64,000 nucleotides of DNA from Alphaproteobacteria bacterium. GTDB taxonomy: Bacteria > Pseudomonadota > Alphaproteobacteria > Bin65. Positions 36,410 to 54,119 of the stretch are shown here, one piece after another. Under the pieces are notes generated by a model. That model was not told where the DNA came from and did not search any database. It saw nothing but the letters and a program-made list of their open reading frames with translations. The stretch lies in the NCBI GenBank assembly GCA_022819985.1, contig JAJEGH010000015.1:1-64000 (forward strand), in the 5' to 3' direction. The first letter of the stretch is position 1; every line of letters begins with the position of its first letter. A program made the position numbers and the translations under genes.

Positions 36410-37315
36410 TCAGGTCGGAATGTGGGAACTGTGGTTCTCCAGATACCACGCCGCGATGGCTTCGCGGGTCGCCCACCACACGCCCTCGAAGCCCCTGGCA
36501 TAGTCCAGGAACTCGCGCAGGGCCCGGATCCGGTAGGGATGGCCGGCGACATGCGGATGCAGGCCGACATTCATCAGCCGGCCGCTTTCCGCGCCTTCCA
36601 AATAAAGTTGGTCGAACTGTTCCTTCAGCAGGTCCAGCGCCATGTGGGTGGACATACCGCGTCGGTGGAAGAAGGTGAAATCGTTGATCTCCACCGAATA
36701 GGGCGTGGAGACGATCGGGCCCGACGGCGTGCGGATCAGGTAGGGCTGCTCGTCATTCATGTAGTCGCACAGGAAAATCAAGCCGTTTTCCGCCAGGATG
36801 TCGGCGGTCTGCGAGGTGCCGCGCAGGGAGGAGGACAGCCAGCCCCGGGCCGGCTTGCCGACGACCTGTTCGTAGACTTCGAGGGTGCGTCCGATCAGAT
36901 CGGCTTCGGCCGCCCGGTCGAACTGGTAGTTGGTCAGCAGGTCGCCCTGCTCGTAATTGTGCGCCACCAGCTCCCAGCCGCGTTCCCGGACCGCGTCGAT
37001 CACCGGTCGTCTCTCCAGTCCCATCTTGGCGTTCATGGTGCAGCCCGCGGGCACGCCGGCCTTGTCGAACGTGTCGATCATCCGCCACACGCCGACCCGC
37101 TGGCCGTATTCGCGCCAGGTGAAATTGTGATAGTCGGGTACGTTGCCGGGCAGGGGATCGGGCAGCACCGGCGGGCCGCCGGCATAGTAGGGCGCGGTGG
37201 TATCCTTCACCAGGTCCCAGAATTCCAGGTTGATCGTGAGGATCAGCGCCAAGCGCGCGCCGTTCGGCCATTTCAGCGGGTTGCGCGCCGGCAGGGGCAC
37301 ATAATCGTAATGCAT
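36410..37315 (-). CDS. Polysaccharide-deacetylase-fold (NodB/PuuE-like) hydrolase
   Basis: 301 residues from the ATG at 37315; upstream in-frame Mets at 37375 and 37474 give non-conserved N-termini. The NodB fold is recognisable from LALILTINLEFWD (motif 1 region), GVWRMIDTFDKAGVPAGCTMNAKMG, WELVAHNYEQGDLLT (motif 2 His) and LMNVGLHPHVAGHPYRIRALREFLDY. These match the PuuE/allantoinase-like and HpPgdA subgroup, which act on small C-N compounds as well as on glycans. It is 23 bp upstream of the liv-type transporter, so it may hydrolyse the transported compound. Confidence 0.82.
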   Translation of the reverse strand: MHYDYVPLPARNPLKWPNGARLALILTINLEFWDLVKDTTAPYYAGGPPVLPDPLPGNVPDYHNFTWREYGQRVGVWRMIDTFDKAGVPAGCTMNAKMGLERRPVIDAVRERGWELVAHNYEQGDLLTNYQFDRAAEADLIGRTLEVYEQVVGKPARGWLSSSLRGTSQTADILAENGLIFLCDYMNDEQPYLIRTPSGPIVSTPYSVEINDFTFFHRRGMSTHMALDLLKEQFDQLYLEGAESGRLMNVGLHPHVAGHPYRIRALREFLDYARGFEGVWWATREAIAAWYLENHSSHIPT

Positions 37316-37473: not shown

Positions 37474-38541
37474 ATGGGCGACGGCTATATCCGGAATGCC
37501 TGGTATGTGGCGGCGTGGCACCACGAGCTTTTGGGCGGCGCCGAAAGGCGGCCGCTCGCCCGCACGCTGCTCGGCGAGCCGGTCGTCCTGTTCCGGCGGG
37601 CCGACGGAACCCCGGCGGCCCTGGAAGACCGCTGCCCGCACCGGCGCCTGCCGCTTTCCATGGGCACGGTCGTCGGCGACGCCCTGCAATGCGGCTATCA
37701 CGGCTTTACGCTGGACGGCGCCGGGCGCTGTGTGCGCATTCCGGGGCAGGACAGCATCCCCGACGCCGCCCGGATACGCGCCTATCCGGCGGTCGAGAAA
37801 TGGCGCTGGATCTGGGTCTGGATGGGCGATCCGGCGCTGGCCGACGAGAGCACGATCCCGGACGTTGCCCTGAACGGCCATCCGGACTGGGCGGTCACGG
37901 AGGGCGAACCTCTGCATGTCGAGGGCCACTACCAGCTTGTCGTCGACAATCTGATGGACGGCTCGCACGTCTCCTTCGTGCACAAGTCGACGCTCGGCAC
38001 CGATGACGTCGCCGACATTCCGGTGCGCGCCGAACGCGACGGCGACCGGGTGCGCATGACTCGCTGGATCCTGGACCGACCGCCGGCGCCGATCTACGCC
38101 GCGCTCGGCGGGTTCGAGGGCAATGTCGACCGCTGGCAGATCATCACCTTCGCGCCGCCCTCCATGGTGGTGGTCGATATGGGCAGCGCAGCAGCCGGGA
38201 CGGGCGCGCCGAAAGGCGACCGCAGCCGGGGGGTGGAACTGCGGTCCTTCAATCTGATCACACCTGAAACCGATCAGAGCAGCTTCTATTTCTATACCCA
38301 TGTGCGCAACTTCTCGCTGATCGATGCGGACGTGGACAGGCGGGTCAGGGACCTGTTCCGCGAGGCGTTCCTGGAGGACAAGGTCGTCATCGAGGGCGTG
38401 CAGCGGGGAAACGAGCGGTTCCCCGGCAGCCCGCGCGTCGATGCCGTCTTCGACCGGGCGCCCACGATGGCGCGCCGCGTCGTCGAACGGCTCGCCCGGC
38501 GGGAAGCGATGCCGGATTCCCGTGTCGTTGCTGCCGGATAG
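37474..38541 (+). CDS. Rieske oxygenase, VanA-like
   Basis: 355 residues from MGDGYIRNAWYVAAW, the standard N-terminus of vanillate-demethylase-type oxygenases. The Rieske cluster is C54-x-H56 and C73-x2-H76 (CPHRRLPLSMG, CGYHGFTLDG). The mononuclear iron site is in VDNLMDGSHVSFVHKSTLG. It typically demethylates or hydroxylates an aromatic acid, using an external reductase that is not seen nearby. It is followed 43 bp later by a flavin monooxygenase and diverges from the deacetylase/Liv operon. A 12-bp unit with its stop codon is triplicated at its 3' end. Confidence 0.9.
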   Translation: MGDGYIRNAWYVAAWHHELLGGAERRPLARTLLGEPVVLFRRADGTPAALEDRCPHRRLPLSMGTVVGDALQCGYHGFTLDGAGRCVRIPGQDSIPDAARIRAYPAVEKWRWIWVWMGDPALADESTIPDVALNGHPDWAVTEGEPLHVEGHYQLVVDNLMDGSHVSFVHKSTLGTDDVADIPVRAERDGDRVRMTRWILDRPPAPIYAALGGFEGNVDRWQIITFAPPSMVVVDMGSAAAGTGAPKGDRSRGVELRSFNLITPETDQSSFYFYTHVRNFSLIDADVDRRVRDLFREAFLEDKVVIEGVQRGNERFPGSPRVDAVFDRAPTMARRVVERLARREAMPDSRVVAAG

Positions 38542-38584: not shown

Positions 38585-39787
38585 ATGGCAGAAACAGACC
38601 GGGTAGTCGTCGCGGGTGCGGGGCCAGTCGGCATGACCGCCGCCGCGTATCTGGCGCTGCACGACATTCCGGTGCTGGTGCTGGAGGCAGGCGACGACCT
38701 GGCGACCGACCTGCGCGCCTCGACCTGGCATCCGCCGACCCTGGACATGCTGGATTTCTTCGACGGCATCGTCGGGGAACTCGCCGGCTGGGGCCTGATC
38801 GCGCCGACCTGGCAGTACCGCGACCGGGAAACCGGCCCCGTCGTCACCTGGGACATGAGCCTACTCAGGGACGATACCGGCCATCCCTACCGGATCCAGA
38901 CCGAGCAGTGGAAGCTGACCCGCCTGCTGCACCGGCGCATGGCGGACGTGCAGCATTTCGATCTGCGCTTCGGCCATGAGGTGACCGGGGCCGGCCAGGA
39001 CGGCGACCGGGCCTGGGTTACGGCGAACACCGCGGACGGCATCGGGAAATTCGAAGGCCGGTGGGTTATCGGCGGCGACGGCGCCAACAGTGCGGTGCGC
39101 CGGTCGCTCGACGTCGCCTATGACGGGCTGACCTTTCCGGAGCTGTTCCTGACGCTCTCGACGAGCTTCGAATTCCGCGGTCCGATGCCGGACCTCACTC
39201 CGGTCAATTATTTCGCCGACCCGGAGGAGTGGCTGGTGCTGCTTCGCGTCGTCGATGCCTGGCGGGTGCTGTTCCCGACCGGCCCGGACGAGGACATGGA
39301 ATTCGCGCTGACCGACGAGCGGGTGCAGGAACGCCTGGCGGGTGTCGCGCCGGGCTGCGGGCCGTTCGATGTCGTGCACAAGACCTACTACCGGGTCCAT
39401 CAGCGGGTCGCCGACCGGTACCGGATCGGCCGCATCCTGCTGGCCGGAGACGCCGCCCATATCAACAATCCGCTCGGCGGCATGGGCATGAACGGCGGCA
39501 TCCAGGACGCCTTCAGCCTGTGCGAGAAGCTGGTCGCCGTCTGGCGCGGCGAAGCGGAAGATTCGGTGCTCGACCGCTACGAGCGGCAGCGCCGGCAGAT
39601 GGCGCTGGATTTCGTGCAGCAGTCGACCATCCGGAACCGGGAGACCCTGATGGAGACCGACCCGGTGCAGCGGCAGAAGCGGCACGACGAGATGCGCCGC
39701 ATTGCCGACGACCCGGCGCGGGCGCGGGAATTTCTGCTGCGCAGTTCGATGATCGCCGGTCTGCGCGAAGCCGAGGCGATCCCTTGA
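38585..39787 (+). CDS. FAD-dependent aromatic monooxygenase
   Basis: 400 residues from MAETDRVVVAGAGPVGMTAA. The FAD-binding GxGxxG (about 10-15), the WVIGGDGANSAVRRSL segment (DG motif, about 160-175) and RILLAGDAAHINNPLGGMGMNGG (GD motif, about 280-302) define a class A flavoprotein hydroxylase such as the p-hydroxybenzoate, 3-hydroxybenzoate or MhpA types. It sits in a two-gene operon with the VanA-like oxygenase, consistent with demethylation then hydroxylation of one aromatic compound. The exact substrate is unknown. Confidence 0.9.
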   Translation: MAETDRVVVAGAGPVGMTAAAYLALHDIPVLVLEAGDDLATDLRASTWHPPTLDMLDFFDGIVGELAGWGLIAPTWQYRDRETGPVVTWDMSLLRDDTGHPYRIQTEQWKLTRLLHRRMADVQHFDLRFGHEVTGAGQDGDRAWVTANTADGIGKFEGRWVIGGDGANSAVRRSLDVAYDGLTFPELFLTLSTSFEFRGPMPDLTPVNYFADPEEWLVLLRVVDAWRVLFPTGPDEDMEFALTDERVQERLAGVAPGCGPFDVVHKTYYRVHQRVADRYRIGRILLAGDAAHINNPLGGMGMNGGIQDAFSLCEKLVAVWRGEAEDSVLDRYERQRRQMALDFVQQSTIRNRETLMETDPVQRQKRHDEMRRIADDPARAREFLLRSSMIAGLREAEAIP

Positions 39788-39859: not shown

Positions 39860-40606
39860 ATGGTCGATTCGATCGGTCACCGCATGAAATTCGGCGTCAT
39901 CGCGCCGTCCACCAACACGGCCGTGCAGCCGGAGTTCGATTCCTTTCGGCCTTACGGCGTGACCAACCATTTCGCCCGCATCCACATCCCGGACAATCCG
40001 GTGCGCAACGACGACGATTTCAATCAACTGATGGTCGATATCCGGGCCGAGCTGATGGTGGCGATCGACCGGGTGGTCACCTGCTCGCCGGGCGCCGTGA
40101 TCATGGGCATGTCGGCCGAGACCTTCTGGGACGGGCTCGAAGGCTCGAAGATCTTCCACCGGAATTGCGAGGCGCGTGCCGGCGTGCCGGTCTCGATGGG
40201 CTCCGACGCCTGCCAGGCGGCGCTGCGCAAATACGGCGACATCAAGCGGATCGGCGTCATCACGCCCTACATGCCGGTCGGCGACGAGAATGTCCGCAAG
40301 TTCTTCGAGGATTGCGGCTTCGAAGTGGTCAATCTCAAGGGCCTGAAATGCGCCAGCCCGCAACTGATCGCCCATGTCTCCGAACGGGAACTGCGCGATT
40401 CGATCGTCGAGGTAAACGACAGCCAGGTCGAGGCGATCGTCCAGGTCGGCACCAACCTTGCCATGGCGCGGGTCGCGGCGATCGCCGAATTCTGGCTCGA
40501 CAAGCCGGTGATCGCGATCAACACGGCGACCTACTGGTGGTCCCTGCGCCAGCAGGGCATTGAGGATAAGGTCTACGGCTGGGGCAGCCTGATGCAGGAC
40601 TATTAA
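39860..40606 (+). CDS. Asp/Glu racemase-superfamily protein lacking both catalytic cysteines
   Basis: 248 residues with an SD of GGAAGGAG. The fold is that of maleate isomerase/arylmalonate decarboxylase: GVIAPSTNTAVQPEF (the TNT ligand-binding motif, 18-20) and IKRIGVITPYMPVGDENVRKFF. At the two catalytic positions it has IMGMSAETFW (Met84) and IVQVGTNLA (Gly197), where the isomerase at 42430 has YGCTAGS and LSCTDLA. Normal thiol-based racemisation or isomerisation is therefore not expected. A decarboxylase, lyase or binding function is open. Its promoter is covered by a 31-bp palindrome. Confidence 0.82.
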   Translation: MVDSIGHRMKFGVIAPSTNTAVQPEFDSFRPYGVTNHFARIHIPDNPVRNDDDFNQLMVDIRAELMVAIDRVVTCSPGAVIMGMSAETFWDGLEGSKIFHRNCEARAGVPVSMGSDACQAALRKYGDIKRIGVITPYMPVGDENVRKFFEDCGFEVVNLKGLKCASPQLIAHVSERELRDSIVEVNDSQVEAIVQVGTNLAMARVAAIAEFWLDKPVIAINTATYWWSLRQQGIEDKVYGWGSLMQDY

Positions 40607-40642: not shown

Positions 40643-41533
40643 TCACCCCCCGGTATCCAGGCGGAACGCCTCGCGGTGGCGGACGATGCGGCCGGCGACC
40701 GGGGTGGGGAAATGCCCGGCGAGCAGGATGGAATCGGTATCGGCCAACCGTTCGATCATAGCGGTGCGGCTTTGAGCCGACATCGCCGGGTCTTCGCAGA
40801 AGGCGCTCGACAAGCCGGGGTCGCAGAGCTGCAGGGGCGTGTGCATGGTGTCGCCGCACAGCAGGGCGTGGCGGCCGCCGTCCTTCACATTCACATTGAC
40901 GTTGCCCGGCGTATGGCCGAAGGCGGGCTCCAGCCAGATGCCATGGTCGAGCTCGTGGTCTGCCTCGACCAGCACCGCCCGCCCGGCCTCCACGACGGGC
41001 AGAACGCTGTCGTCGAAGCTGCCGTGGTTGGGCGGCTCCTGCGCGCCTTCGGCCTTTGCGCGGCGGGCTTCGGCCTCCCAGAACTCGTACTCCCGGCGCG
41101 CGAAGACATAGCGGGCGTTGGGGAAGGTCGGCACCCAGCGGCCGTCGACCAGCTGCGTGTTCCAGCCGACATGGTCGGCGTGCAGATGGGTGCACATCAC
41201 CACGTCGATGTCTTCCGGCGCGACGCCGGCCGCGCGCATGGTGTCGAGGAACGGGGTTCGCTGCCGGTGCCACATCGGCCGGTGCGGCCGGTCTTTGTCG
41301 TTGCCGACACAGCAATCGACCAGGATGGTGCGGCGCGGCGTGCGCAGGACGAGCGCGTGAAAGGCCATGATCAGCTTGCCGTCCGGCGCAACGAAGCGGG
41401 GCGTCAGCCAGTCGGCGTTGGCGTCGACCAGCTCCTGCGTCGCGCCCGGCAGGATGAAATCGAAGTCGGCGAAGGCGCCTTCGGCCTCCACGATCCGGTC
41501 GATGACGATGTCGCCGATAACCTGGGTTTTCAT
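40643..41533 (-). CDS. MBL-fold metallo-hydrolase
   Basis: 296 residues with the zinc motif THLHADH (115-121), further ligands His in EPPNHGSF/DHELDHG regions, and Asp in LLCGDTMHTPLQL. This is a metallo-beta-lactamase-fold hydrolase of the lactonase/glyoxalase-like class. It is the last gene of the leftward catabolic run. A lactone or thioester hydrolysis step fits the context but is not proven. It is convergent with the cysteine-less racemase-fold gene. Confidence 0.88.
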   Translation of the reverse strand: MKTQVIGDIVIDRIVEAEGAFADFDFILPGATQELVDANADWLTPRFVAPDGKLIMAFHALVLRTPRRTILVDCCVGNDKDRPHRPMWHRQRTPFLDTMRAAGVAPEDIDVVMCTHLHADHVGWNTQLVDGRWVPTFPNARYVFARREYEFWEAEARRAKAEGAQEPPNHGSFDDSVLPVVEAGRAVLVEADHELDHGIWLEPAFGHTPGNVNVNVKDGGRHALLCGDTMHTPLQLCDPGLSSAFCEDPAMSAQSRTAMIERLADTDSILLAGHFPTPVAGRIVRHREAFRLDTGG

Positions 41534-41581
41534 GATCGGGTCTCCGCGCCGCGCGCGCCTCGATCGGAGGCAGGTGCTCCG

Positions 41582-42430
41582 CTACAGGATTCCGGGCTTT
41601 TCGTGGTGCCGGTCCCGGGCACCGGCGGCGGCTTCGTCCGGCGGCAGCGAATCGTCCCACAGGCGCGCGATATAGCGCTCCGCGGTATGGCCGTTCGAGC
41701 GGTCCGAGCACAACCACAGGATCGGCGCGCGCATGATCTCCGGCCGCAGCAGTCCGCCGTCAGCGCCGCGCTTGTGTTTCATTTCCGGCAGGATGGCGGT
41801 GTCGGTCGCGCCGCCGGGCAGGAAGACGTTCACCGTCACGCCCGTGCCGTCCAGATCCTGCGCCCAGACCCGGCTCATCGCCTCCAGCATCGCCTTGCTC
41901 GGCCCGTAGGGCGAATAGCCGACGCGCACGATGGTCACGTCGCTGGTCGAGACGTTGACGATCTTGCCGAAGCCCTGCCCGATGAAACGGGGCGTGAAGG
42001 CGCGCGCCATGTTGAAGACGCCATTGATGTTAGTGTCGACGATCTCGCGCCAGCCGTCGAGCGGCGCCTCCCAGAATTTCGGCCGCTCCTCGACATAGTT
42101 CGGATGGACCAGCTTCATGCCGCGCCCGGCGTTGTTGACCAGGCAGTGCACGGCCCCGAAGGCGTCCAGCGTCCGTTCGAGGACGCGCAGGCAATCCTCG
42201 TAATTGCGCACATCCGCCTGCGCCGCGATCAGCCGGCCGGGCCCGGCCAGCGCCGCAGCCCGCGCCTCGACATCGGCCAGCTCGCCGGCCTCGCGGGCGC
42301 TGGTCACCGCCACCCGCGCGCCGGCGCCGACCAGGGCGAGCGCCATCTCGAGGCCGAGGCCCCTGCCGCCGCCGGTGACGACGGCGACACGATCCTTTAG
42401 CGACGGGTAGAGATCGGCCGCGGCTGTCAT
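41582..42430 (-). CDS. Short-chain dehydrogenase/reductase
   Basis: 282-residue SDR with TGGGRGLG (about 20-27), NNAG (about 96), Ser in VNVSTSDVTIV and YGPSK (about 161). The C-terminus carries about 25 residues beyond the usual core (SLPPDEAAAGARDRHHEKPG). The start overlaps the stop of the maleate isomerase gene (TGATG), so the two are translationally coupled. A role in the same pathway is inferred. Confidence 0.9.
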   Translation of the reverse strand: MTAAADLYPSLKDRVAVVTGGGRGLGLEMALALVGAGARVAVTSAREAGELADVEARAAALAGPGRLIAAQADVRNYEDCLRVLERTLDAFGAVHCLVNNAGRGMKLVHPNYVEERPKFWEAPLDGWREIVDTNINGVFNMARAFTPRFIGQGFGKIVNVSTSDVTIVRVGYSPYGPSKAMLEAMSRVWAQDLDGTGVTVNVFLPGGATDTAILPEMKHKRGADGGLLRPEIMRAPILWLCSDRSNGHTAERYIARLWDDSLPPDEAAAGARDRHHEKPGIL

Positions 42431-43185
42431 CAGTGTTCCCGGAGCAACCGTCCGAAGCCGTCGAGCCGGTCGTCGATCCCGGCGCGGCGCAGCGCGAACC
42501 AGAAGGTTGCCGTGTTGCTGCTGACGACAGGCTTGCCGGTTTCGGCTTCCAGCCTTTCGATCGCGTCCAGCGTCGCCAGATCGGTGCAGGACAGCAGGAT
42601 CGCCTGCGCCTCCGGCCGGTCGACGCGCTTCGCCAGGGCATAGACCTCCTCGGGCCGGATGCGCGCGATGTTGCGGTGCTCCTGCGGCCCGCCGGCGCCG
42701 TAACCGAAGCCTTCCTCATGGATGACCGCGACGCCGTGGTCGGCCAGGAAGCGGACCTCGTGGGCATTGAGCGCGCGGTCATAGGGCGTGCCGAGCGCCA
42801 CCTTCGTCGCGCCGAGGGCGCGCAGGGCTTCGACGATGGCCTGCGCCGTCGTCACTGCCGGCCGCCCCGTACGTTCGGCCATGAAGTCCGGCAGACCTTC
42901 GACCGGGCTGACCATGGACCCGGCGGTGCAGCCATAGGCGATCAGGTCGACGCTCGCCTGGGCCAGATCGCCGGCATAGCGCTCGACGTCGGCGTAGAGC
43001 GCCGTCTTGCCGGCTTCGCTCGCCGTATCGAGATGCAGCGGCATGCGCGCGGCATGGATCGTCACGCCGGGCGGCGTCATGCGCGCCCATTCGGCCTCGT
43101 TGGCGGTGTTGGTGGGCGGGACGATAACGCCGATCTTGGCTCGTGTGCCGTAAACGGTCGGATCGTCGATGCGGTCCAGCCGCAT
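42430..43185 (-). CDS. Maleate cis-trans isomerase
   Basis: 251 residues from the ATG at 43185. GVIVPPTNTANEAEWARM contains the TNT motif, and the two catalytic cysteines are C86 (IAYGCTAGSM) and C200 (LLSCTDLATL). Position and motif agree with NicE/maleate isomerase, which converts maleate to fumarate. It is 8 bp downstream of a cysteine hydrolase resembling maleamate amidohydrolase, the enzyme that makes maleate from maleamate. The pair is the end of several pyridine-ring degradation pathways. Arylmalonate decarboxylase is the nearest alternative but has only the second Cys. Confidence 0.85.
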   Translation of the reverse strand: MRLDRIDDPTVYGTRAKIGVIVPPTNTANEAEWARMTPPGVTIHAARMPLHLDTASEAGKTALYADVERYAGDLAQASVDLIAYGCTAGSMVSPVEGLPDFMAERTGRPAVTTAQAIVEALRALGATKVALGTPYDRALNAHEVRFLADHGVAVIHEEGFGYGAGGPQEHRNIARIRPEEVYALAKRVDRPEAQAILLSCTDLATLDAIERLEAETGKPVVSSNTATFWFALRRAGIDDRLDGFGRLLREH

Positions 43186-43193
43186 GGCGCCGG

Positions 43194-43898
43194 CTACTCG
43201 GCAGCCTGTGCCGGCGCGCCTGCGAGGGCGCCGATGACCTCGTCGGTCGTCATGACGTCGGCGAAGTTGATCGACATGCTGGTCAGGCTGGCGTTGTGGA
43301 TGGCGTCGGTATAGGTCGCGTTGCCGTCGGTCACCATGATGACATGGAAGTTGCGCATCATGGCGTCGCGCGCGGTCGCTTCGCAGCAGACGTTGGTGAG
43401 CGTGCCGGTTACCGCCAGGGTATCGATGCCCCGGGAGCGCAATTGCGCCTCGATGTCGGAAGATCCTTGGATGAAGGCGCTGAAGCGCCTCTTGACCGAC
43501 CGCATGTCGCCGTCTTCGGCCTCCATGTCCGGCCAGAGGGGATGGCCTTCGGCGCCTTCCATGAGCTGCCGCGCGATCCGCTTCGCCATCTCCGGGCTGA
43601 CGGTGCCGCCCAGGAAGGACGACCATTCGGTGAAGATGTTCTCGTCGAAGGTGGTGGTGACCCAGACGACCGATCCGCCGGTCGCCCGGAAAGCGGCCGC
43701 GAGGCGATTGATGTTGGGCACGATTTCGCGTGCCATCGGCACTTCCGAAGGCAGACCCGGCTTGAGAAATGCCGTCTGCATGTCGACCACGACCAGAGCG
43801 GTGCGCGCAGGATCGAGCGTGTCGTGGACATGGAGGCGGCCGCCGCGCCGCGCCTTGATAAACCGGACGGCATCCGGATGGATTTCGGTTTTGTGCAT
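43194..43898 (-). CDS. Isochorismatase-like cysteine hydrolase, probable maleamate amidohydrolase
   Basis: 234 residues with the triad D39 (VVVDMQTAF), K136 (SVKRRFSAF) and C171 (TLTNVCCEATARDAMM). The N-terminal extension of about 30 residues before the first strand resembles N-carbamoylsarcosine amidase-type members. With the maleate isomerase gene immediately downstream, the best assignment is maleamate to maleate plus ammonia (NicF-like). An N-carbamoyl or other amide substrate is the alternative. Confidence 0.8.
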   Translation of the reverse strand: MHKTEIHPDAVRFIKARRGGRLHVHDTLDPARTALVVVDMQTAFLKPGLPSEVPMAREIVPNINRLAAAFRATGGSVVWVTTTFDENIFTEWSSFLGGTVSPEMAKRIARQLMEGAEGHPLWPDMEAEDGDMRSVKRRFSAFIQGSSDIEAQLRSRGIDTLAVTGTLTNVCCEATARDAMMRNFHVIMVTDGNATYTDAIHNASLTSMSINFADVMTTDEVIGALAGAPAQAAE

Positions 43899-44045
43899 GA
43901 CGCTCTCCTCTCCCGGCCCGCCGGACTGGCGGCGCGTGACGACGGACGCGGACGATAAAAGGCGACAATCCGCGCCGTGTCCAGCGTTAGCCTGCCGCTT
44001 CGCGGTGAAATGCGCCCGCCACGGGCTGTCGGGCCGGCCTCTCCG

Positions 44046-44822
44046 CTATTGGCGGCGGAAGCGCGACAGCCAGGGAGTTTGCAGCGTAATCGCGTCATAG
44101 AGGAGCTGGCTGCCGGAGCCCAGGAGCCCCAATGAAATGATCCCGACAACCATCAGCGGCGTCTGGAGGTTGAGTCGCGAATCCATGATGAGGAAGCCGA
44201 TGCCCTTGTCGACGGCGATGAATTCGGCGGAGACCAGTGCGATGTAGGCAAAGCCGATGCCGTTGCGCATGCCCAGGAGAACGTAGGACGCGGTGGACGG
44301 CAGGATGATGCGATAGAAGACCTGAAGCTGCGACAATCCCAGGCAGCGCGCTGCGCGCAGCCGCACCTTTGGAACCTCGCGCACCCCCGTCATGGTGCTG
44401 ACCGTCACCACCACCCAGGTGATGTAGGCGATAATCAGCAGCTTGGGCAGTTCGCCGATCCCGAACCACAGGATCATGATCGGAACGAGGGAAATCGGCG
44501 CCACGCCCTTGAGGAATTCGAAGATCGGCCCGACAACCGCGTCGACGCCGCGCAATTCCCCCAGGAGGAGCCCCGTCGCGATTCCCGCGACGACCCCGAT
44601 CGCCCAGCCCCAGCCGACCCGCCACAGGCTGATCCGGATCGATTCCCACAACAGGCCGGACTCTGCCTTTGCAACGGCCTCCTGCCACACCGCGTGGGGA
44701 TGCGGCAGCTGGACCTCGGAGACCAGCGTGCCGCTGGCGACCGCCCAGACCGCAAGCCCCGTCAGGATCGACAGGGTGGCGACGACGGCGGTCCGCCGGA
44801 TTCCGTGGCCGGGCATCGCCAT
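44046..44822 (-). CDS. NitT/TauT-type ABC permease
   Basis: 258 residues with six spans and the BPD_transp_1 loop VREVPKVRLRAARCLGLSQLQVFYRIILPSTASYVL (the EAA loop, about 120-160). Typical of SsuC/TauC permeases. It lies 4 bp after the other permease gene, so the transporter has two different permease subunits where a homodimer is usual. It is separated from the cysteine hydrolase gene by about 150 bp. Confidence 0.9.
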   Translation of the reverse strand: MAMPGHGIRRTAVVATLSILTGLAVWAVASGTLVSEVQLPHPHAVWQEAVAKAESGLLWESIRISLWRVGWGWAIGVVAGIATGLLLGELRGVDAVVGPIFEFLKGVAPISLVPIMILWFGIGELPKLLIIAYITWVVVTVSTMTGVREVPKVRLRAARCLGLSQLQVFYRIILPSTASYVLLGMRNGIGFAYIALVSAEFIAVDKGIGFLIMDSRLNLQTPLMVVGIISLGLLGSGSQLLYDAITLQTPWLSRFRRQ

Positions 44823-44826
44823 GTCC

Positions 44827-45588
44827 TCAGACCCGCCGCCTCACCGACCAGCGCGGCATGAAGCGCTCGATGGCGAACGCGATGCCCCGGTCGAACAGGA
44901 TGCTAAGAATGCCGAGGCCGAAAATCCCGATGAAGATCAGCGTCGGGTCGTAATTCTGGCGCCCGCGGATGATGAGATAGCCGAGGCCGCTCGCGGCGCC
45001 GAGCATTTCGGCCGCGACGACGACCATGATGCACAATCCCGTCGCCGTCCGGACGCCCGCCAGTATGGCGGGAAACGACGACGGAACAACGACCCGAAAG
45101 AAGGCCGAGGCGCCGAGGACGCCCAGCGTGTTCGCCGCCTTGATGCGCAGGCGGGGAACCTGCGCCACGCCGCCCCGGGCGTTCAGGGCGACGACATACA
45201 CGCCAACGTAGAAGACGAGCGAGTAGCGGGCGAGTTCGGTCACCCCGAACCACAGAAGGGCGAACGGAATGAGCGCGATCGCCGGCGTGGAGTTCGCCAT
45301 GCGCATATACGGATCGAACCAGGCGTTGACGTCGCGCGACGCGCCCATCGCGCAGCCCAACACCGCGCCGAGCGGCATCCCCACGGCAAGCGGAACCAGG
45401 AGGCGCTGCAGGGTGGCGCCGAGATGCTCGAACAGCTCGCCGGTCTCCGTCATGTACGCAAGGCCGCGCATGACATCCATCGGCTCCGGGAAAAGCAGCG
45501 GCGTACCGACGAAGGCGGCGGCGACCTGCCAGAGGATGAAGAACAGGAGGATTCCGTAAAGCGGGCCGAATCTGCCGGGCCGGATCAA
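44827..45588 (-). CDS. NitT/TauT-type ABC permease, TTG start
   Basis: 253 residues. The start is taken as TTG at 45588, which overlaps the ATPase stop (TTGA) and has GGGGAG about 9 bp upstream. Any earlier start would lie deep in the ATPase gene. Six spans are seen, with the EAA loop VAQVPRLRIKAANTLGVLGASAFFRVVVPSSFPAIL. It pairs with the permease gene at 44046 and the ATPase at 45585. Confidence 0.88.
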   Translation of the reverse strand: MIRPGRFGPLYGILLFFILWQVAAAFVGTPLLFPEPMDVMRGLAYMTETGELFEHLGATLQRLLVPLAVGMPLGAVLGCAMGASRDVNAWFDPYMRMANSTPAIALIPFALLWFGVTELARYSLVFYVGVYVVALNARGGVAQVPRLRIKAANTLGVLGASAFFRVVVPSSFPAILAGVRTATGLCIMVVVAAEMLGAASGLGYLIIRGRQNYDPTLIFIGIFGLGILSILFDRGIAFAIERFMPRWSVRRRV

Positions 45589-46379
45589 CGGGCTTCTCCC
45601 CGCCCGGCGTCGCCCGCATCCTGGACGTGGCCGATCAGCGCTTCGACGCGCCGGTATGCGGCGATGAACGCCGGATCCGCCGGGTCCCGCTCGTCCGGCA
45701 GCCCGGGCCGGAACGTATCGAGGATCCGGGCGCCGGGACCCGATGACAGGACCGTCACGTCGGTCGCCAGGATCAGCGCTTCGGAAATGTCGTGGGTGAC
45801 GAAAATCACCGTCTTGTGCGTGCGCTGCCACAGGTCCTTGAGTTCGTACTGCATACGCCGCCGCGTGATCGCATCCAGCGCCGCAAACGGTTCGTCCATG
45901 ATCAGTACATGCGGGTCCATGACCAGACCTCGCGCGATCTGCACGCGCTGCTTCATGCCGCCCGACAGTTCAGAGGGAAACTTGTGGGTGTCCTTGTCCA
46001 GGCCGACCAATTCGAGGGCCTCGAGAGCCCGGGTGCGCCGCTCCCTACGGTTGCGGACGAAATTTCTGAGGCCGAACTCGGCGTTTTCCTGGACCGTGAG
46101 CCACGGAAACAGGGCGTTGCCGATATCCTGGAAGATGACGACCCGGTCCGGTCCCGGCCCGCGGACGGGAGAGTCGTCGAAGGCGATGGTTCCGCCGGTC
46201 GGCTGTTCGAAGCCGGCGATCAGGTCGACCAGCGTGCTCTTGCCCGAGCCGCTGGGGCCGAGGATGCACATGAACGCGCCCCGATCGACGGTGAGGTCGA
46301 TGTTCGAAAGGATAACGGAGCCGCGCGCGAATTGCTTGCACAGCCCCGAAACCCTCAGCCGTTTCCAGTCGTCATCCAT
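45585..46379 (-). CDS. NitT/TauT-type ABC ATPase
   Basis: 264 residues. Walker A GPSGSGKST, Q-loop VIFQDIGNALFPWLTVQENAEFGL, signature LSGGMKQRVQIARGL, Walker B LIMDEPFAALDAITR and the switch His in FVTHDISEAL match SsuB/TauB/NrtD. It couples to the permease genes just downstream. It is the second transporter gene after the binding protein in the leftward operon. Confidence 0.92.
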   Translation of the reverse strand: MDDDWKRLRVSGLCKQFARGSVILSNIDLTVDRGAFMCILGPSGSGKSTLVDLIAGFEQPTGGTIAFDDSPVRGPGPDRVVIFQDIGNALFPWLTVQENAEFGLRNFVRNRRERRTRALEALELVGLDKDTHKFPSELSGGMKQRVQIARGLVMDPHVLIMDEPFAALDAITRRRMQYELKDLWQRTHKTVIFVTHDISEALILATDVTVLSSGPGARILDTFRPGLPDERDPADPAFIAAYRRVEALIGHVQDAGDAGRGEAR

Positions 46380-46428
46380 CGGCGAAGCTCGACCCGCCGC
46401 CGGGCAGGGCGGCGGGCCGCCCGGCCGC

Positions 46429-47391
46429 CTACATGCCCTTTACGAGGTTCGGGTCCAGCTTCTTGATATACGACCAGTCGGCCGCCTTGTTCCAGTCGAC
46501 CGGGCTTTTCAGGATGCCGAGCCCCTGCAGAAACTGCTCGATGTTGCGCATTTGCGTGCGGAAGGCGTTGTCGCTGACCAAATCCCACTTCTGTCCGCCC
46601 GAGACGTGCTCGACCAGCTTCACCGGCAGTTTGGTGAACTTCGCCACCGCCTCGAAGGCTTCCTTCGGGTTATTGGTCAGGAAGTCGGAGCCCTTCTTGA
46701 TGGCCCGCATGAAGGCATCCATCTCGCCCTTGGGCGCCGATTCGAGATATTTCCGGGACGCCAGCAGGCCGCTGTAGAACGAGTAGCCCAGGTCGCCCGA
46801 AGTCGCCAGGATCTTGAACTTGTCGCTCAGCCCCATGATTTTCTGGTCGAACGGCTTCCACAGCGACACGGCGAAGACGTCGCCTTTGACCAGTGCGGGA
46901 ACCTGGTCGAACGGCGCGAGATGAACCATCTCGACGTCTTTGACAGTGAGCCCGCCCGATTTCAGATACTGTTGCAGCATGAACTCCGACGCCGACTTGC
47001 GGAACAGGCCGATCTTCTTGCCCTTGAGGTCCGCGGGGCCCTTGACGGTCTTGGGGCCCATCATGAAGACCATGTGATTGTTGTCGGAGAACTGGGTGAC
47101 GATCACCGCATCGCCGCCTGCTCCCATCATGATCATGGGCTGATCGCCGGTGACCAGGAACTGGGCGCCGCCCGAGCGGAAGGCCTCTGCCGCCGCAACG
47201 CCGGCCTGGAATGTGCGCACGGTGACGTCGAGGCCCTCCTCCTTGAAATAGCCCTTGACGAACGCCACGAACGGCGGCGCGAAGACGGGGCTGACGCCCG
47301 AGAAAACGTTGATCTTGGTGCCCGCCGATGACGGAACCGCGGCAAAGGCCACGCCGGCCGCCGCGACCAGTGCGAGTGCAATACGTCTCAT
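46429..47391 (-). CDS. NMT1/SsuA-like ABC transporter substrate-binding protein
   Basis: 320 residues from MRRIALALVAAAGVAFAA, a Sec signal cleaved near SAG-TKI. The SsuA/TauA/NMT1 fold is shown by PVFAPPFVAFVKGYFKEEGLDVTV, FLVTGDQPMI and the DLKGKKIGLFRKSASEFML segment. Such proteins bind sulfonates, nitrate, thiamine precursors or aromatic acids. Here the surrounding Rieske oxygenase and maleamate/maleate genes suggest an aromatic or N-heteroaromatic substrate. SD AAGGGAAGGGAA precedes the start. Confidence 0.9.
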   Translation of the reverse strand: MRRIALALVAAAGVAFAAVPSSAGTKINVFSGVSPVFAPPFVAFVKGYFKEEGLDVTVRTFQAGVAAAEAFRSGGAQFLVTGDQPMIMMGAGGDAVIVTQFSDNNHMVFMMGPKTVKGPADLKGKKIGLFRKSASEFMLQQYLKSGGLTVKDVEMVHLAPFDQVPALVKGDVFAVSLWKPFDQKIMGLSDKFKILATSGDLGYSFYSGLLASRKYLESAPKGEMDAFMRAIKKGSDFLTNNPKEAFEAVAKFTKLPVKLVEHVSGGQKWDLVSDNAFRTQMRNIEQFLQGLGILKSPVDWNKAADWSYIKKLDPNLVKGM

Positions 47392-47500
47392 GGTTCGTTC
47401 CCTTCCCTTGCTGAATGACCGAAACGCACGGCCCGAAACGGCCGCTTCGATCCATACACGTCTCTGATCGGCAGTTTGCGCTCCGCTCCCGCCGGCGCGC

Positions 47501-47845
47501 TCAGATTTGCGGTTTGCAGCTCGCGTCTCCGAAACCCATCCGTTCGGGCGGAAAGGCATCGTCGATGTCGGTGGCTTTCCAGTTGAGCTCGATGGGGTGC
47601 GCGCACTCGACGAAAGTGATCAGCAGGTCGAATAGCGTCCGCTCCTCGTCCGGCAGCGCCGCGAGGTCGAAAGTCTTCAGATAGTCGGCAATCTCCTCCG
47701 CCCGCGGCGCCATGGCGTCGTAGAACGCTCGCAGCGCCTCGATCGACGTCGCCATCTGATGTAAGAAACGGTCGCGTTCGTTGCTCAGCGCCCACTCGGC
47801 CACGAACGGCTCGAGGTCGGCGAACCGATCCGGCAGCTTTTTCAT
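47501..47845 (-). CDS. Small protein coupled to Rieske dioxygenase
   Basis: 114 residues, mostly helical and acidic, with no membrane segment: LPDRFADLEPFVAEWALSNE near the start and AYDAMAPRAEEIADYL-like helices (here FYDAMAPRAEEIADYLKTFD). Its start overlaps the Rieske alpha-subunit stop by 4 bp. Similar short genes commonly follow Rieske oxygenases of this kind, but no function is established to my knowledge. It is not a typical beta subunit (no nuclear-transport-factor-2-like fold is evident). Confidence 0.75.
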   Translation of the reverse strand: MKKLPDRFADLEPFVAEWALSNERDRFLHQMATSIEALRAFYDAMAPRAEEIADYLKTFDLAALPDEERTLFDLLITFVECAHPIELNWKATDIDDAFPPERMGFGDASCKPQI

Positions 47846-49047
47846 GGCTCGGCCACCATCCGGTCGACCGCCGAAAAGTGTTTCTGCAGCAGAAGCTCCT
47901 GCTGCGAGAGAACGATGTCCGTCATGGCGCCGGACTTGAACTGCCGGTGGACGTTCTCCATCACGCCGACATCCTCGCGGAACACCTCGCGTAGGATGGT
48001 CCGGAAATAGGCGTGCGCCATGTGGTCGTCGACCGATTTGGCCTCGTAGGCGTAGTAGTCGATCGTGACGTGGGTGCGGTTCTCGTCGATCGGCCAGAAC
48101 CACCCGACCGTGTGAAAATCCCCGGCGGCCACGATGTAGATATTCGGGAAGATTTCGATGATGTCGTGCAGCCAGTTCCTGATGCGCAGCGGGTTGACGC
48201 CGGGCGGCAGATCGCGGTCCGCCGTGATGTTGGGCGTAAAGGTCGGGTACATCGGCCGCCCGCGGCCGTAGGAAATTCCCTCGGCCAGGGTGGGCTTGTG
48301 ATCGATGCTGCCCTCGACCGAATAGAGGCCGTGGTATTTCGAGACCCCGATATAGGGGCGGTGGCGCTCGGGATTCTGCGGCCCGCCCTGATAATCCGGC
48401 ACCGTCGCCCGGTGGACGTAGAGCGCGTGATACCCTTCCGAGAACGCGTTCATGACCACGTTCCAGTTGCATTCCAGGTCGATGGTCTGGTTCGCGACCT
48501 TCTGCCGGCCGTGGAAATAGCCGCGGAAGCCATCGTACCAGGAGTCCATCCACTCCCGGAGCGTCATGCGCGGTTGCCTGTCGAAGTTGACGAAGACGAA
48601 GTCCTCCCAGACTTCGGTATGGAGCGGGATAAGGCCGAGTTCCGCTTCGTCGATGCCCTTGAACTGCGTGCGGTCCGTCACCGCGGCGAGGCGGCCGTCG
48701 TTGAAATAGGTCCAGCCGTGAAAACCGCAGGTGAATTTCCGGGCGTTGCCCTCCGCCTCGGTCACCACGCGGTTGCCCCGGTGGCGGCACATATTGTGGA
48801 AGGCCCTGACCTCGCCGTCCGAACCGCGGGCGACGATCAGGCAGGTGTTCAGGGGCGGCACCTCGCGTGCGACATAGTCATTCGGGTTCGGGATATCCGA
48901 GGCGCAGGCGACCATCAGCCACCCGCGGCGATACACCTTGTCGACCTCCTGCCGGTAGAACTCCGGCGTCAGGCGTTCGTAAAAGTTGATCCGGTTGCTC
49001 AGGCCGGTCAGGTCGCCGGCGAAGGTCGTGGTCGTCTTCTCGGTCAT
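47842..49047 (-). CDS. Aromatic-ring-hydroxylating dioxygenase, Rieske alpha subunit
   Basis: 401 residues. Rieske ligands C87-x-H89 and C107-x2-H110 (NMCRHRGNRV and TCGFHGWTYF). The mononuclear iron site is E204-x2-H207-x4-H212 (AFSEGYHALYVH), with Glu where many dioxygenases have Asp. This is the CntA/choline-monooxygenase and phthalate-type spacing. It begins the leftward run dioxygenase, small protein, NitT/TauT transporter, maleamate amidohydrolase-like, maleate isomerase. No ferredoxin or reductase gene is adjacent. It diverges from the IclR regulator gene at 49175. Confidence 0.92.
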   Translation of the reverse strand: MTEKTTTTFAGDLTGLSNRINFYERLTPEFYRQEVDKVYRRGWLMVACASDIPNPNDYVAREVPPLNTCLIVARGSDGEVRAFHNMCRHRGNRVVTEAEGNARKFTCGFHGWTYFNDGRLAAVTDRTQFKGIDEAELGLIPLHTEVWEDFVFVNFDRQPRMTLREWMDSWYDGFRGYFHGRQKVANQTIDLECNWNVVMNAFSEGYHALYVHRATVPDYQGGPQNPERHRPYIGVSKYHGLYSVEGSIDHKPTLAEGISYGRGRPMYPTFTPNITADRDLPPGVNPLRIRNWLHDIIEIFPNIYIVAAGDFHTVGWFWPIDENRTHVTIDYYAYEAKSVDDHMAHAYFRTILREVFREDVGVMENVHRQFKSGAMTDIVLSQQELLLQKHFSAVDRMVAEP

Positions 49048-49158
49048 GAGGCTTGCGCTGTCGATCTCCAGGACAGGCCGGTCCGGCGGCGTCTCGGATT
49101 TGCCTTTTGCGAATCAATACGTCGGAGCGATTGATCGAAGAGGCAAAAAGCGCCTAAA

Positions 49159-49173
49159 TTCCACCAGGTGGAA
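49159..49173. promoter_or_regulatory. IclR-type operator palindrome
   Basis: Perfect TTCCACC-A-GGTGGAA (7-1-7) ending one base before the iclR-family start codon and about 112 bp from the divergent dioxygenase start. TTCCA...TGGAA symmetry is typical for IclR-family sites, so autoregulation is likely. Confidence 0.65.
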
Positions 49174-49174
49174 C

Positions 49175-50080
49175 ATGGGGGCTGCTGTGGCGCTTCGATC
49201 CGCAAAGCCGGTCCGGGCCCTGAAGCGCGGGATCCTCGTCATGCGCGCCCTCGATACCCACGGCGCCATATCGCTGGAGGAGCTGAACCGGTGCACGGGA
49301 ATCGCGAAGGCAACCCTGAGCCGCATCCTGCTGACGCTCAAGTCGGAAAACCTCGCGACCCAGCGTATTGCCGACAAGAAATGGGTTGCCGGCCCGTCGA
49401 TCGGAACGCCATCTCCGGAGGGCATCGCCCGGAAGCTGTTGGTCCAGGTTGCGATTCCCGAACTGACGAAGCTCTGCCGTAAGGTTATCTGGCCTTCGGA
49501 CTTGGCCGTCCGTTCCGGGCTTTGCATGGTTCTGGTCGAGACGAGCCGCCCCGAAACGCCGCTGATGTTCAACAAGCTGTCGGTCGGGTTTCAGGCGGAC
49601 TTTCTGCTTTCGGCGACCGGCCGGGCCTATCTGGCTTACTGCCCGGAAGCGGAAAGGCGCGAAATCCTCGACGAACTCGGCAAACGGCCGCGATACGATT
49701 TCCTGTTCAAATCCGGCCAGATGACCGCGGTTCTCGAGAGTGTCCGCGAGCGGGGCTACGGTTATCGCGATTCCCGGTGGGGCGGCCGGATCGGCACATT
49801 CAGGACCGAGTATGACGATGGACTCGACGCGATCGCCGTTCCGATCGGGCATGACGACGGGATACTCGGCTGTCTGAACATCACCTGGATCAGGTCGCTG
49901 CTACCGCAGAAGGAGATCGTCCGGCGCAACCTGCGCGACCTGAAGGATGCGGCCGGCCGTATCTCAACGCTGTTCGACCACGAGACGGCGGCCCGAACCG
50001 CCGGTCCGGGCACGGCCGGAGAAAACTGGATCCGGGGCGCTTCTCCCGTTACCCCACCGCCCGGTCGAGCACAGCCTTGA
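49175..50080 (+). CDS. IclR-family transcriptional regulator
   Basis: 301 residues from MGAAVALRSAKPVRALKRG. The winged helix-turn-helix (about 12-75) has ISLEELNRCTGIAKATLSRILLTL. The effector domain (about 95-270) has LLSATGRAYLAYCPEAERREIL and AIAVPIGHDDGILGCLNITW. It is divergent from the Rieske dioxygenase operon, so it is the probable regulator of that pathway. Its 3' end overlaps the convergent amidohydrolase gene by 32 bp. Confidence 0.92.
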   Translation: MGAAVALRSAKPVRALKRGILVMRALDTHGAISLEELNRCTGIAKATLSRILLTLKSENLATQRIADKKWVAGPSIGTPSPEGIARKLLVQVAIPELTKLCRKVIWPSDLAVRSGLCMVLVETSRPETPLMFNKLSVGFQADFLLSATGRAYLAYCPEAERREILDELGKRPRYDFLFKSGQMTAVLESVRERGYGYRDSRWGGRIGTFRTEYDDGLDAIAVPIGHDDGILGCLNITWIRSLLPQKEIVRRNLRDLKDAAGRISTLFDHETAARTAGPGTAGENWIRGASPVTPPPGRAQP

Positions 50081-51284
50081 GCAGCACCTCGGCGCCGGCA
50101 GCGCAGTCTTCCGGGGTGGCGTTCTCGATCTCGTTGTGGCTGATGCCGTCCTCACAGGGGATGAAGATCATGCCGGTCGGCGCGATCCGCGCGATGTAGA
50201 CCGCGTCGTGGCCGGCGCCGGAGACGATGTCGCGCCAACTGTGGCCGCCCTGCTCGGCAGCTGTGCGCACGGCGGAAACGCAATCCTCGTCGAAAGGCTG
50301 CGCCGGAAACTCCCAGAAATCCACGATATCGACGGTGCAGCCGGCGGCCTCGGCGATCTCTTCGAATTCGGCGCGCAGCCGGTCGTTCATCGCCGCCAGC
50401 GTGTCGTCGTCCGGATGCCGCATGTCGACGGTGAAGAAGACTTTTCCGGGGATCGTGTTGCGCGAGTTCGGGCTGGCGTCGACGAAGCCGACGGTGGCGC
50501 AGGCGTAGGGCGGGAAGGCGTGGCCCAGCCGGTTGATCGCGTCGATCATCCGGGAGGCCGCGACCAGCGCGTCCCTGCGCAACGGCATCGGCGTGGGGCC
50601 GGCATGGGCCTCCTGCCCGGTCACGGTGATCTCGTACCAGTGCTGGCCCTGCGCCCCGGTGACGACGCCGATGGTCTTCTCCTCGTTCTCGAGGATCGGG
50701 CCCTGCTCGATATGGGCCTCGAAATAGGCGCCGACCTCGCGGCCGCCGACCTCGGCCGGCCCGTCGTAGCCGATGCGTTTCAGTTCGTCGCCCAGCAGGT
50801 CGCCGGTGACGTTGTCGGGCCGGGAGAGCATCTCTTCCTCGCTGAACACGCCGGCGAAGGCGCCGGAGCCCATCATGGGCGGCGAGAAGCGGCTGCCCTC
50901 CTCGTTGGTCCAGGCGACGACCTCGACTGGCGCGTCGGTCTCGATCTCCAGGTCGTTGAGGGTGCGGACGACCTCCAGCCCGGCAAGCACGCCGTAGGCG
51001 CCGTCGAACTTGCCGCCGGTCGGCTGGGAATCGAGATGGCTGCCGGTCATCACCGGCGGGCGCGACTCGTCCTTGCCGGGTCGGCGGGCGAAGATGTTGC
51101 CGACCCGGTCGACGCGCACCGTGCAGCCGGCGGCTTCGCACCAGCGGATGAACAGGTCGCGACCCTCCCGGTCGAGGTCTGTGAGCGCGAGCCGGCATAC
51201 GCCGCCCTTCTCTGTCGCGCCGATCTGCGCCAGTTCCATCAGGGAGTCCCACAGCCGGTCGCCGTTGATCGTCAAGTTCTGCAT
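50049..51284 (-). CDS. Zn-dependent M20-family amidohydrolase (N-carbamoyl-amino-acid hydrolase / allantoate amidohydrolase type)
   Basis: 411 residues from the ATG at 51284. The dinuclear metal site includes TGSHLDSQPTGGKFDGAYG (His and Asp), AWTNEEGSRF (Glu-Glu) and AYFEAHIEQGP (His). GQEAHAGPTPM belongs to the lid/dimer domain and SGAGHDAVYIA to the C-terminal catalytic part. This is the HyuC/beta-ureidopropionase/AllC family, which releases ammonia or carbamate from N-carbamoyl or ureido compounds. It is convergent with the IclR gene and divergent from the acyl-CoA ligase gene. Confidence 0.9.
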   Translation of the reverse strand: MQNLTINGDRLWDSLMELAQIGATEKGGVCRLALTDLDREGRDLFIRWCEAAGCTVRVDRVGNIFARRPGKDESRPPVMTGSHLDSQPTGGKFDGAYGVLAGLEVVRTLNDLEIETDAPVEVVAWTNEEGSRFSPPMMGSGAFAGVFSEEEMLSRPDNVTGDLLGDELKRIGYDGPAEVGGREVGAYFEAHIEQGPILENEEKTIGVVTGAQGQHWYEITVTGQEAHAGPTPMPLRRDALVAASRMIDAINRLGHAFPPYACATVGFVDASPNSRNTIPGKVFFTVDMRHPDDDTLAAMNDRLRAEFEEIAEAAGCTVDIVDFWEFPAQPFDEDCVSAVRTAAEQGGHSWRDIVSGAGHDAVYIARIAPTGMIFIPCEDGISHNEIENATPEDCAAGAEVLLKAVLDRAVG

Positions 51285-53058: not shown

Positions 53059-54114
53059 ATGACGGAGACGATGCGCGCCGCCTTTCTGGAGGGGCATGAG
53101 GGGATCGGCAGCCTGACGGTCGGCAGGCGGCCCAGGCCGGAGCCGGGCCACGGCGAGGTGCTGATCCGGATTGCGGCGGCGGGCCTGAACCGGGTCGATC
53201 TCTACATGGCGAACGACGGCTCGGGTTTCCGCCACGAACTGCCGATCACGCTGGGCGTCGACGGCGCCGGAGTCATCGAAGCGCTCGGCCCCGGTTGCAC
53301 TGCCCGCCGCGTCGGTGAGCGGGTGGTGATCTACCCAGCGCGCTACGGACTCGACGAATTCACCCGGCGCGGCGATCAGATGCTGTCCTTTTCGCGCGCC
53401 ATCCCCGGCGAGAATATCGACGGCTGCTTTGCCGACTATATCGCGATGCCGGAGGTCTGCGCCTTCCCGATCGCCGACGATCTCGGCTTCGTCGAGGCGG
53501 CGATGCTGCCGACTGCCTATCTGACCGCTTGGCGCGCGGTGACCACGGCGGGCCGGGTCGGTTCGGCGGACTGGGTGTTGATCCACGGCGTCGGCGGCGG
53601 CGCCTCGACGGCGGCGTTGCAGTTCTGCGCCCTGCGCCGGGCCAAGACGATCGTCACCTCGTCCTCGGACGCCAAGCTGGCCGCGGCGCGGGAGCGCGGC
53701 GCGACCCACACGGTCAACTACCGCGAGCAGGACGTGCTGGCGGAGGTACGCCGGATCACGGAGAGGCGCGGTGTCGACGTGGTGATCGAGAATGTCGGCG
53801 CCGACACCTGGAGCACCTCGCTCAAGGCGTTGACCGGCGGCGGCCGCCTCGTCGTGTTCGGCGCGACCACCGGGCCGAACCCGCCGGCCGATCTGCAACG
53901 GGTGTTCATCCGCCAACTGCACATCGTCGGCGTGACCATCGGCAATTTCGAGGAATTCCGCACCTTGGTCGACGCCGCCGAGCGCAAGCTGTTCGTCCCG
54001 GTAGTCGACCGGGTGGTGCCGCTGGAGGACGTGCGGGAGGGCCTCGCCTATCTCGAATCCGGCCGGCAGACCGGCAAGATCGCCGTCGCCATCGATCCTG
54101 CGCTGTGCGGCTGA
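53059..54114 (+). CDS. MDR-superfamily zinc-binding dehydrogenase / quinone oxidoreductase
   Basis: 351 residues. GroES-like domain with GLNRVDLYMANDG and ITLGVDGAGVIEALG, then a Rossmann domain with HGVGGGASTAALQF and TIVTSSSDAKLAAA. Catalytic and structural zinc cysteines of true alcohol dehydrogenases are not apparent, so a zinc-free quinone or enoyl reductase of this superfamily is likely. It is about 105 bp downstream of the acyl-CoA ligase gene and may be co-transcribed. It is convergent with the PhyH-type gene. Confidence 0.88.
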   Translation: MTETMRAAFLEGHEGIGSLTVGRRPRPEPGHGEVLIRIAAAGLNRVDLYMANDGSGFRHELPITLGVDGAGVIEALGPGCTARRVGERVVIYPARYGLDEFTRRGDQMLSFSRAIPGENIDGCFADYIAMPEVCAFPIADDLGFVEAAMLPTAYLTAWRAVTTAGRVGSADWVLIHGVGGGASTAALQFCALRRAKTIVTSSSDAKLAAARERGATHTVNYREQDVLAEVRRITERRGVDVVIENVGADTWSTSLKALTGGGRLVVFGATTGPNPPADLQRVFIRQLHIVGVTIGNFEEFRTLVDAAERKLFVPVVDRVVPLEDVREGLAYLESGRQTGKIAVAIDPALCG

Positions 54115-54119
54115 CGGCC

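Follow-up and report, generated by a model that had tools for sequence, protein, structure and literature searches.

Do degradation genes that follow one another on a strand belong to one pathway? This question is raised by a run of genes on the minus strand of an alphaproteobacterial contig (lineage Bin65; contig JAJEGH010000015.1 of GenBank assembly GCA_022819985.1), recognized from the sequence alone and extending from position 49047 down to position 40643 of the 64,000-nucleotide stretch analysed here (the window). In a preliminary description, this run was presented as a single operon for the degradation of an N-heteroaromatic compound through maleamate. The predicted proteins were compared with Pfam, NCBIfam and PDB, and all the genes named in that description were found to be intact open reading frames (ORFs) on the strands assigned to them. 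The family assignments were also borne out, except for that of one hydrolase. Gene order alone pointed to a single pathway, but comparison with a sibling genome shows a cassette soon after its insertion beside an older module. In the best explanation as a whole, to which we give a probability of roughly 0.6, a module for the breakdown of an N-containing compound has received a cassette of Rieske, importer and IclR genes, the two parts having the roles proposed below.

A cassette inserted beside an older module

The genome of a sibling from the same genus (G002) has about 94% DNA identity to the window. At the corresponding locus of this genome (L040), the gene encoding an isochorismatase-fold hydrolase lies directly after an M20 hydrolase gene, with both flanks intact. 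Positions 1400–1580 of L040 align with positions 50195–50015 of the window, and positions 1588–1800 with positions 44035–43823 (93% identity in each case); between these two junctions, there are 7 bases in the sibling versus 5979 in the window. The block absent from the sibling locus (44036–50014, 5979 bp) contains exactly the Rieske, small-protein, importer and IclR genes. The claim of one operon is not borne out by this comparison, because the sibling carries the second half of the run without the first. No relative of the Rieske protein with more than 31% identity was found in the other genomes of the genus (G001–G006 were searched), and the gene order of the window was recovered from none of the 372–385 genomes of the class in which it was sought, its halves occurring separately.

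Insertion is favoured over deletion, because the IclR reading frame ends in the old flank and because the guanine-plus-cytosine content of the block (0.638) is below that of the flanks (0.668 and 0.688). The IclR gene (49175–50080, plus strand; PF01614 and PF09339), divergent from the run as had been claimed, spans the breakpoint at 50014/50015: its last 21 or so codons are pre-insertion flank, read antisense to the end of the M20 gene, and the tail of an IclR homologue (62%) on a Silicimonas contig (L039) is unrelated to this tail. At the other end of the block, the leader of the isochorismatase gene (43899–44035, minus strand) is 91% identical over 135 nt to L040. It is common to the sibling without the block, and the upstream region of the isochorismatase gene is thus older than the insertion. 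The locus is very probably a composite of two evolutionary histories, a cassette beside an older degradation module, and the arrival of the cassette, as judged from these alignments, is recent.

The older module and its relatives

The remainder of the older module, at 36.4–40.6 kb, was overlooked in the preliminary description. The order in the sibling genome is M20 hydrolase, isochorismatase-fold hydrolase, two-Cys isomerase, short-chain dehydrogenase/reductase (SDR), metallo-beta-lactamase (MBL)-fold hydrolase, Cys-less AMDase-like protein, flavin adenine dinucleotide (FAD) monooxygenase, VanA-type Rieske oxygenase, PuuE-like hydrolase and Liv importer; the order is the same in the window, with 93–98% protein identity. 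The M20 hydrolase (50049–51284, minus strand; 311–1540 in L040) belongs to the allantoate amidohydrolase subfamily, with a score above the cut-off (NF006769, 670 bits). The two-Cys protein (42433–43185, minus strand; PF17645, 3e-33) is a member of the AMDase/maleate-isomerase/EutA family and has both catalytic Cys, as claimed, in the motifs YGCTAGS and LLSCTDL, aligned with those of the Nocardia maleate isomerase 2XEC (5e-22, 82 bits) and of AMDase (4e-21, 79 bits); it scores 131 bits against EutA, for a cut-off of 318. The SDR and MBL genes claimed are also present. The SDR oxidoreductase (41582–42430, minus strand) matches PF00106 (2e-40), and the MBL-fold hydrolase (40643–41533, minus strand; PF00753, 3e-21) carries a THLHADH motif and has AidB and 4-pyridoxolactonase as relatives, with a relation to AidB below the cut-off (91 bits versus 360).

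On the plus strand, the Cys-less AMDase-like protein (39860–40606; PF17645, 9e-15) lacks the two catalytic Cys (GMSAETFWDG). It is preceded by the FAD monooxygenase (38585–39787; PF01494, 2e-54), the PDB matches of which are PnpA (6AIN, 2.5e-59) and HspB (7DA9, 2.3e-51), both of which add a hydroxyl group para to one already on the ring, and by the VanA-type Rieske oxygenase (RieskeB, 37477–38541; PF19112, 1e-50), which has no small partner beside it. The PuuE-like hydrolase, of the allantoinase/imidase type (36410–37315, minus strand), matches PuuE (3CL6, 3e-33) but does not pass the cut-off of TIGR03212 (153 bits versus 425).

Parts of this module recur in loci of the same genus (L042, L043 and L092) and elsewhere (L045, L046, L048, L060, L061 and L106). 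In L043, isomerase, SDR and MBL genes face genes for an AMDase-like protein, a NicF-type isochorismatase and an FAD monooxygenase, and L092 has PuuE-like, VanA-type Rieske, FAD monooxygenase, AMDase-like and SDR genes. The sets outside the genus include an Allorhizobium plasmid (L060), with a Liv importer, FAD monooxygenase, AMDase-like, PuuE-like, SDR, MBL, isomerase, NicF-type and M20 genes, and a Thioclava plasmid (L061), on which a TRAP-TAXI importer accompanies FAD monooxygenase, AMDase-like, isomerase, MBL and NicF-type genes; L045, L046, L048 and L106 hold subsets. The older-module clusters of these relatives showed neither a NicX nor a NicD gene. Of 385 genomes of the class, 51 encode relatives of the Cys-less AMDase-like protein. 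Some genomes have as many as seven copies, and the neighbours are often NicF-type, FAD monooxygenase or TRAP-TAXI genes. Genes for a CaiB-type CoA-transferase and an HMG-CoA-lyase-like protein stand beside older-module relatives in L048 (5179–7467) and L104 (11166–13261), and the product in these lineages may therefore be a methylated diacid. A literature search for combinations of imidase/deacetylase and isomerase/isochorismatase/Rieske genes yielded none. Beyond an AMP-ligase gene, the window also has genes for a zinc alcohol dehydrogenase and a PhyH-type Fe/2-oxoglutarate dioxygenase (53059–55127).

The gene content makes the catabolism of an N-containing compound a likely function of the older module. 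The substrate could instead be a ureide, an imide or a pyrimidine-like ring, with ring hydrolysis by the PuuE-like protein, decarbamoylation by the M20 protein, amide hydrolysis by a RutB-like enzyme and the two-Cys protein as a racemase. The M20 score, the RutB-type motif of the isochorismatase-fold hydrolase and the RidA or HyuA/HyuB genes near its paralogues (see below) are consistent with such a route, as is L056, in which a two-Cys relative is flanked by relatives of PuuE and M20. This route is nonetheless unlikely, given the PnpA/HspB type of the FAD monooxygenase, the NicF-type, rather than RutB-type, amidases of the relatives and the TIGR03212 score far under its cut-off.

The hydrolase and the maleamate route

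The isochorismatase-fold Cys hydrolase of the window (43194–43898, minus strand; PF00857, TNVCCE motif) is the one for which the earlier assignment, maleamate-amidohydrolase-like, did not hold. It scores 35 bits against 3OT4/3UAO, labelled "putative isochorismatase" in the database and which we take to be NicF of Bordetella bronchiseptica, but 66–70 bits against RutB, YecD and 3IRV. Its identity as a maleamate amidohydrolase was rejected on this score of 35 bits and on the motif TNVCCEATARDA. It is RutB/YecD-like, although it does not pass the RutB profile (TIGR03614, 81 bits versus a cut-off of 378). Its paralogues in the same genome (51% and 43%) lie near RidA or HyuA/HyuB genes, names that were assigned by reading the translations. 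In an alignment, the window hydrolase and these paralogues have TNVCCE-type motifs, and the NicF type has TSGCVRA and PHEANLFDM; the relative in the L043 cluster has the NicF motifs and scores 220 bits against 3OT4/3UAO. It seems improbable, from these comparisons, that the window hydrolase performs the maleamate step.

The genome has a NicF orthologue on another contig (C44, 33306–33830), 87% identical to the NicF-type protein of L043. It stands (in L127, C44 24000–43000) beside genes for a thiamine pyrophosphate enzyme, a PEP-mutase/isocitrate-lyase family protein and a BenE-like permease. The genes of L127 surround the older module in L043, and for this reason the module seems to be split over two contigs in this genome. 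The reported absence of the dioxygenase NicX and the deformylase NicD is correct for the window, which has neither, but NicX-like proteins are encoded elsewhere in the genome, on contigs C36 and C46 (41% and 38% identical, respectively, to NicX from an Azospirillum plasmid, used as the query). The Fe ligands of NicX are His265, His318 and Asp320 (PMC7910607), and both paralogues keep these His/His/Asp ligands, with SHxGWG and HxDxP conserved. The NicX-like gene on C46 (L146, 110500–130000) lies near genes for an apparent molybdenum hydroxylase of the CoxL/CoxM type, for an alpha/beta hydrolase and for hydantoinase A/B, and this region is a candidate for a separate N-heterocycle cluster. Since a NicF orthologue and NicX-like proteins exist on other contigs, a maleamate route dispersed over the genome would be possible in this organism.

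Could the run nevertheless be one maleamate operon? The Rieske enzyme would attack the substrate, the isochorismatase-fold hydrolase would act on maleamate, the isomerase would convert maleate to fumarate and the NicX and NicD steps would come from elsewhere in the genome. The NicF orthologue, the two NicX-like proteins with their Fe ligands and both Cys of the isomerase are in keeping with this proposal, as is the presence in Variovorax WDL1 of a homologous Rieske/small-protein pair upstream of genes for an ester cyclase, a ferredoxin, a NicD-like hydrolase, NicX and NicF. A single operon of this kind is quite improbable, however, because the Rieske block was inserted, the isochorismatase-fold hydrolase resembles RutB and the NicX-like and NicF genes lie on other contigs. 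The maleamate idea is partly supported: it identified the right chemical neighbourhood, but for the wrong unit, one with two histories, and with the wrong hydrolase.

The Rieske oxygenase of the cassette and its small partner

In the explanation that we prefer, the insertion brought in a Rieske oxygenase with its own partner and importer. The Rieske protein (RieskeA, 47842–49047, minus strand) matches both PF00355 and PF00848, has the motif NWNVVMNAFSEGYHALYVH and carries a bridging Glu in SEGYH. Its best PDB match is the carnitine oxygenase CntA (6Y9C, 1e-28), which also has a bridging Glu (E205). The Cys pair of Group V (Cys206/Cys209), next to the mononuclear Fe site, is absent from RieskeA (SEGYHALYVH; EGYHA versus ECYHC), and a betaine-type identity is weakened by this absence. 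On a contig of a Silicimonas metagenome-assembled genome (L039, 1–5579), a sequence 96.7% identical over 153 nt to the start of RieskeA begins one base before the ATG. It follows Tm-1-like and TIM-barrel genes and has an IS66-type transposase upstream, so that this Rieske gene has been used in a mosaic for a second time.

The small coupled protein noticed earlier is a 114-aa ORF (47501–47845, minus strand), the start of which overlaps the Rieske stop, and it has no family in Pfam, NCBIfam or PDB. A small-protein gene adjoins the RieskeA homologue in all 13 loci collected by Rieske homology alone (L002–L007 and L154–L160; L003 and L007 have one and the same small gene, which they share, and L159 coincides with L100). 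This shared gene, on contig C29 of G004, is flanked by two divergent RieskeA-type genes. Relatives of the small protein were also found beside Rieske genes in the plasmid loci L133 and L149–L153. Two of the loci collected by the small protein are exceptions: L148, an IS6100 mosaic, has nothing more than a fragment of a Rieske gene nearby, and the unannotated locus L161 gave no Rieske match. Neither the Asp-type Rieske genes of L049–L051 and L132 nor RieskeB had the small protein as a neighbour. The bridging residue of the Rieske proteins associated with it is mostly Glu, with Asp in the WDL1 member.

Fourteen aligned members of the small-protein family have a common L-P/W/R/F pattern; they have no match among Pfam, NCBIfam (SnoaL/NTF2 included) or PDB families, and no structure in PDB was significantly similar to the small protein in a fold search. 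An AlphaFold model predicts four helices (predicted local distance difference test score of 77), with a low-confidence C-terminus. A profile built from three members found only the window among 398 genomes of the phylum, a negative result that reflects limited sensitivity, because searches led by the Rieske protein found many relatives. Elsewhere, the pair is found near a molybdenum hydroxylase gene in Paroceanicella and near indole/styrene monooxygenase genes in Acinetobacter. We tentatively propose that this helical protein of about 114 aa may be a subunit or assembly factor, so far unrecognised, on which a widespread, mostly bridging-Glu clade of Rieske oxygenases depends, and that the pair may start N-heteroaromatic degradation in several lineages. 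An N-heteroaromatic substrate is the favoured reading for the pair; for the cassette of the window, the oxidation of such a compound has about even odds.

The importer claimed as NitT/TauT-type is encoded on the minus strand by genes for an NMT1/SsuA-type substrate-binding protein (46429–47391; PF09084, 1.6e-28; TIGR01728 below cut-off), an ABC transporter ATPase (45585–46379; PF00005, 2e-32) and two permeases of the BPD_transp_1 type (44827–45588 and 44046–44822; PF00528, 2e-18 and 6e-20, respectively). That RieskeA and the small protein form a demethylase unit for a quaternary amine (betaine or N-methylpyridinium) is very improbable, as the match to CntA and the shared bridging Glu are set against the missing Cys pair and against neighbours of the pair that include molybdenum hydroxylase, NicX and indole/styrene monooxygenase genes.

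Proposed scheme and its significance

The explanation to which we adhere, a recently inserted cassette beside an older module for an N-containing compound, can be put as a scheme. The older module comprises all the genes of the sibling order, from the M20 gene to the Liv-type importer, and the 5.98-kb cassette has entered between the M20 and isochorismatase genes. The NitT/TauT importer may take up a small aromatic or N-heteroaromatic compound, which RieskeA and the small protein would hydroxylate under the control of IclR. In the older module, the FAD monooxygenase would oxidise an N-heteroaromatic ring, the PuuE-like protein would open a cyclic amide or imide hydrolytically, the M20 and isochorismatase-type amidases would remove nitrogen and the two-Cys isomerase would turn a cis-diacid, such as maleate, into its trans form. 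With hydrolytic ring opening, NicX and NicD would not be needed.

Several points weigh against this explanation. Most of the family scores are far under the equivalog cut-offs, and the Cys-less AMDase-like protein is left without a role. The cassette has no reductase gene, and some neighbourhoods of the Rieske/small-protein pair (with CaiB, SMP-30 and FAH) suggest other chemistry. The last permease gene is separated from the isochorismatase gene by 147 bp, and promoter and terminator scans gave nothing above chance level; read-through from the importer genes into the isochorismatase gene is possible, because this gap has no terminator above chance.

The locus provides a direct view of the assembly of a degradation cluster, and the constant small partner is a testable candidate for a component that one group of Rieske oxygenases still lacks. 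A module with FAD monooxygenase, PuuE-like and NicF-type genes but no ring-cleaving dioxygenase recurs, which suggests that bacteria have their own version of the hydrolytic opening of the pyridine ring, a route so far worked out in a fungus.

Comparison with known systems

RieskeA resembles CntA, a Group V Rieske oxygenase, in its best structural match and in its bridging acid, but the similarity lies mainly in residues 28–214, and RieskeA differs in lacking the Cys pair and in having a dedicated small partner gene. The pair recalls Rieske dioxygenases with SnoaL/NTF2 beta subunits, in which an alpha-subunit domain pair is also accompanied by a coupled small gene; unlike these subunits, the small protein of the window is predicted to be all-helical and has no SnoaL match, and L100, L133, L149 and L153 carry the small protein plus a separate NTF2/SnoaL protein. 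The ureidoacrylate amidohydrolase RutB and YecD are the closest described relatives of the window hydrolase, but its score is far under the RutB equivalog cut-off and there is no rut gene set beside it.

With the nic maleamate pathway (NicC-NicX-NicD-NicF-NicE), the window shares an NicC/HspB-like FAD monooxygenase and a maleate-isomerase-family protein in one cluster, and an NicF-type amidase is found in relatives and on another contig of the genome. It differs in having neither NicX nor NicD, in its RutB-like isochorismatase and in its extra PuuE-like, MBL, SDR, Cys-less AMDase-like and M20 genes. In the hxn nicotinate pathway of Aspergillus, the ring is opened between C and N by way of an NicC-like monooxygenase, an SDR and a PuuE-related cyclic imidase (PMC9304392). 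The window has an NicC-like monooxygenase, an SDR and a hydrolase related to PuuE in sequence, a candidate cyclic imide hydrolase of the HxnM type, a likeness that is one of analogy, not orthology, whereas the bacterial cluster has in addition a maleate-isomerase-family protein and isochorismatase and M20 amidases. By this analogy, an alternative to the nic route would be for the PuuE-like protein to open the ring by hydrolysis, in the manner of the fungal pathway.

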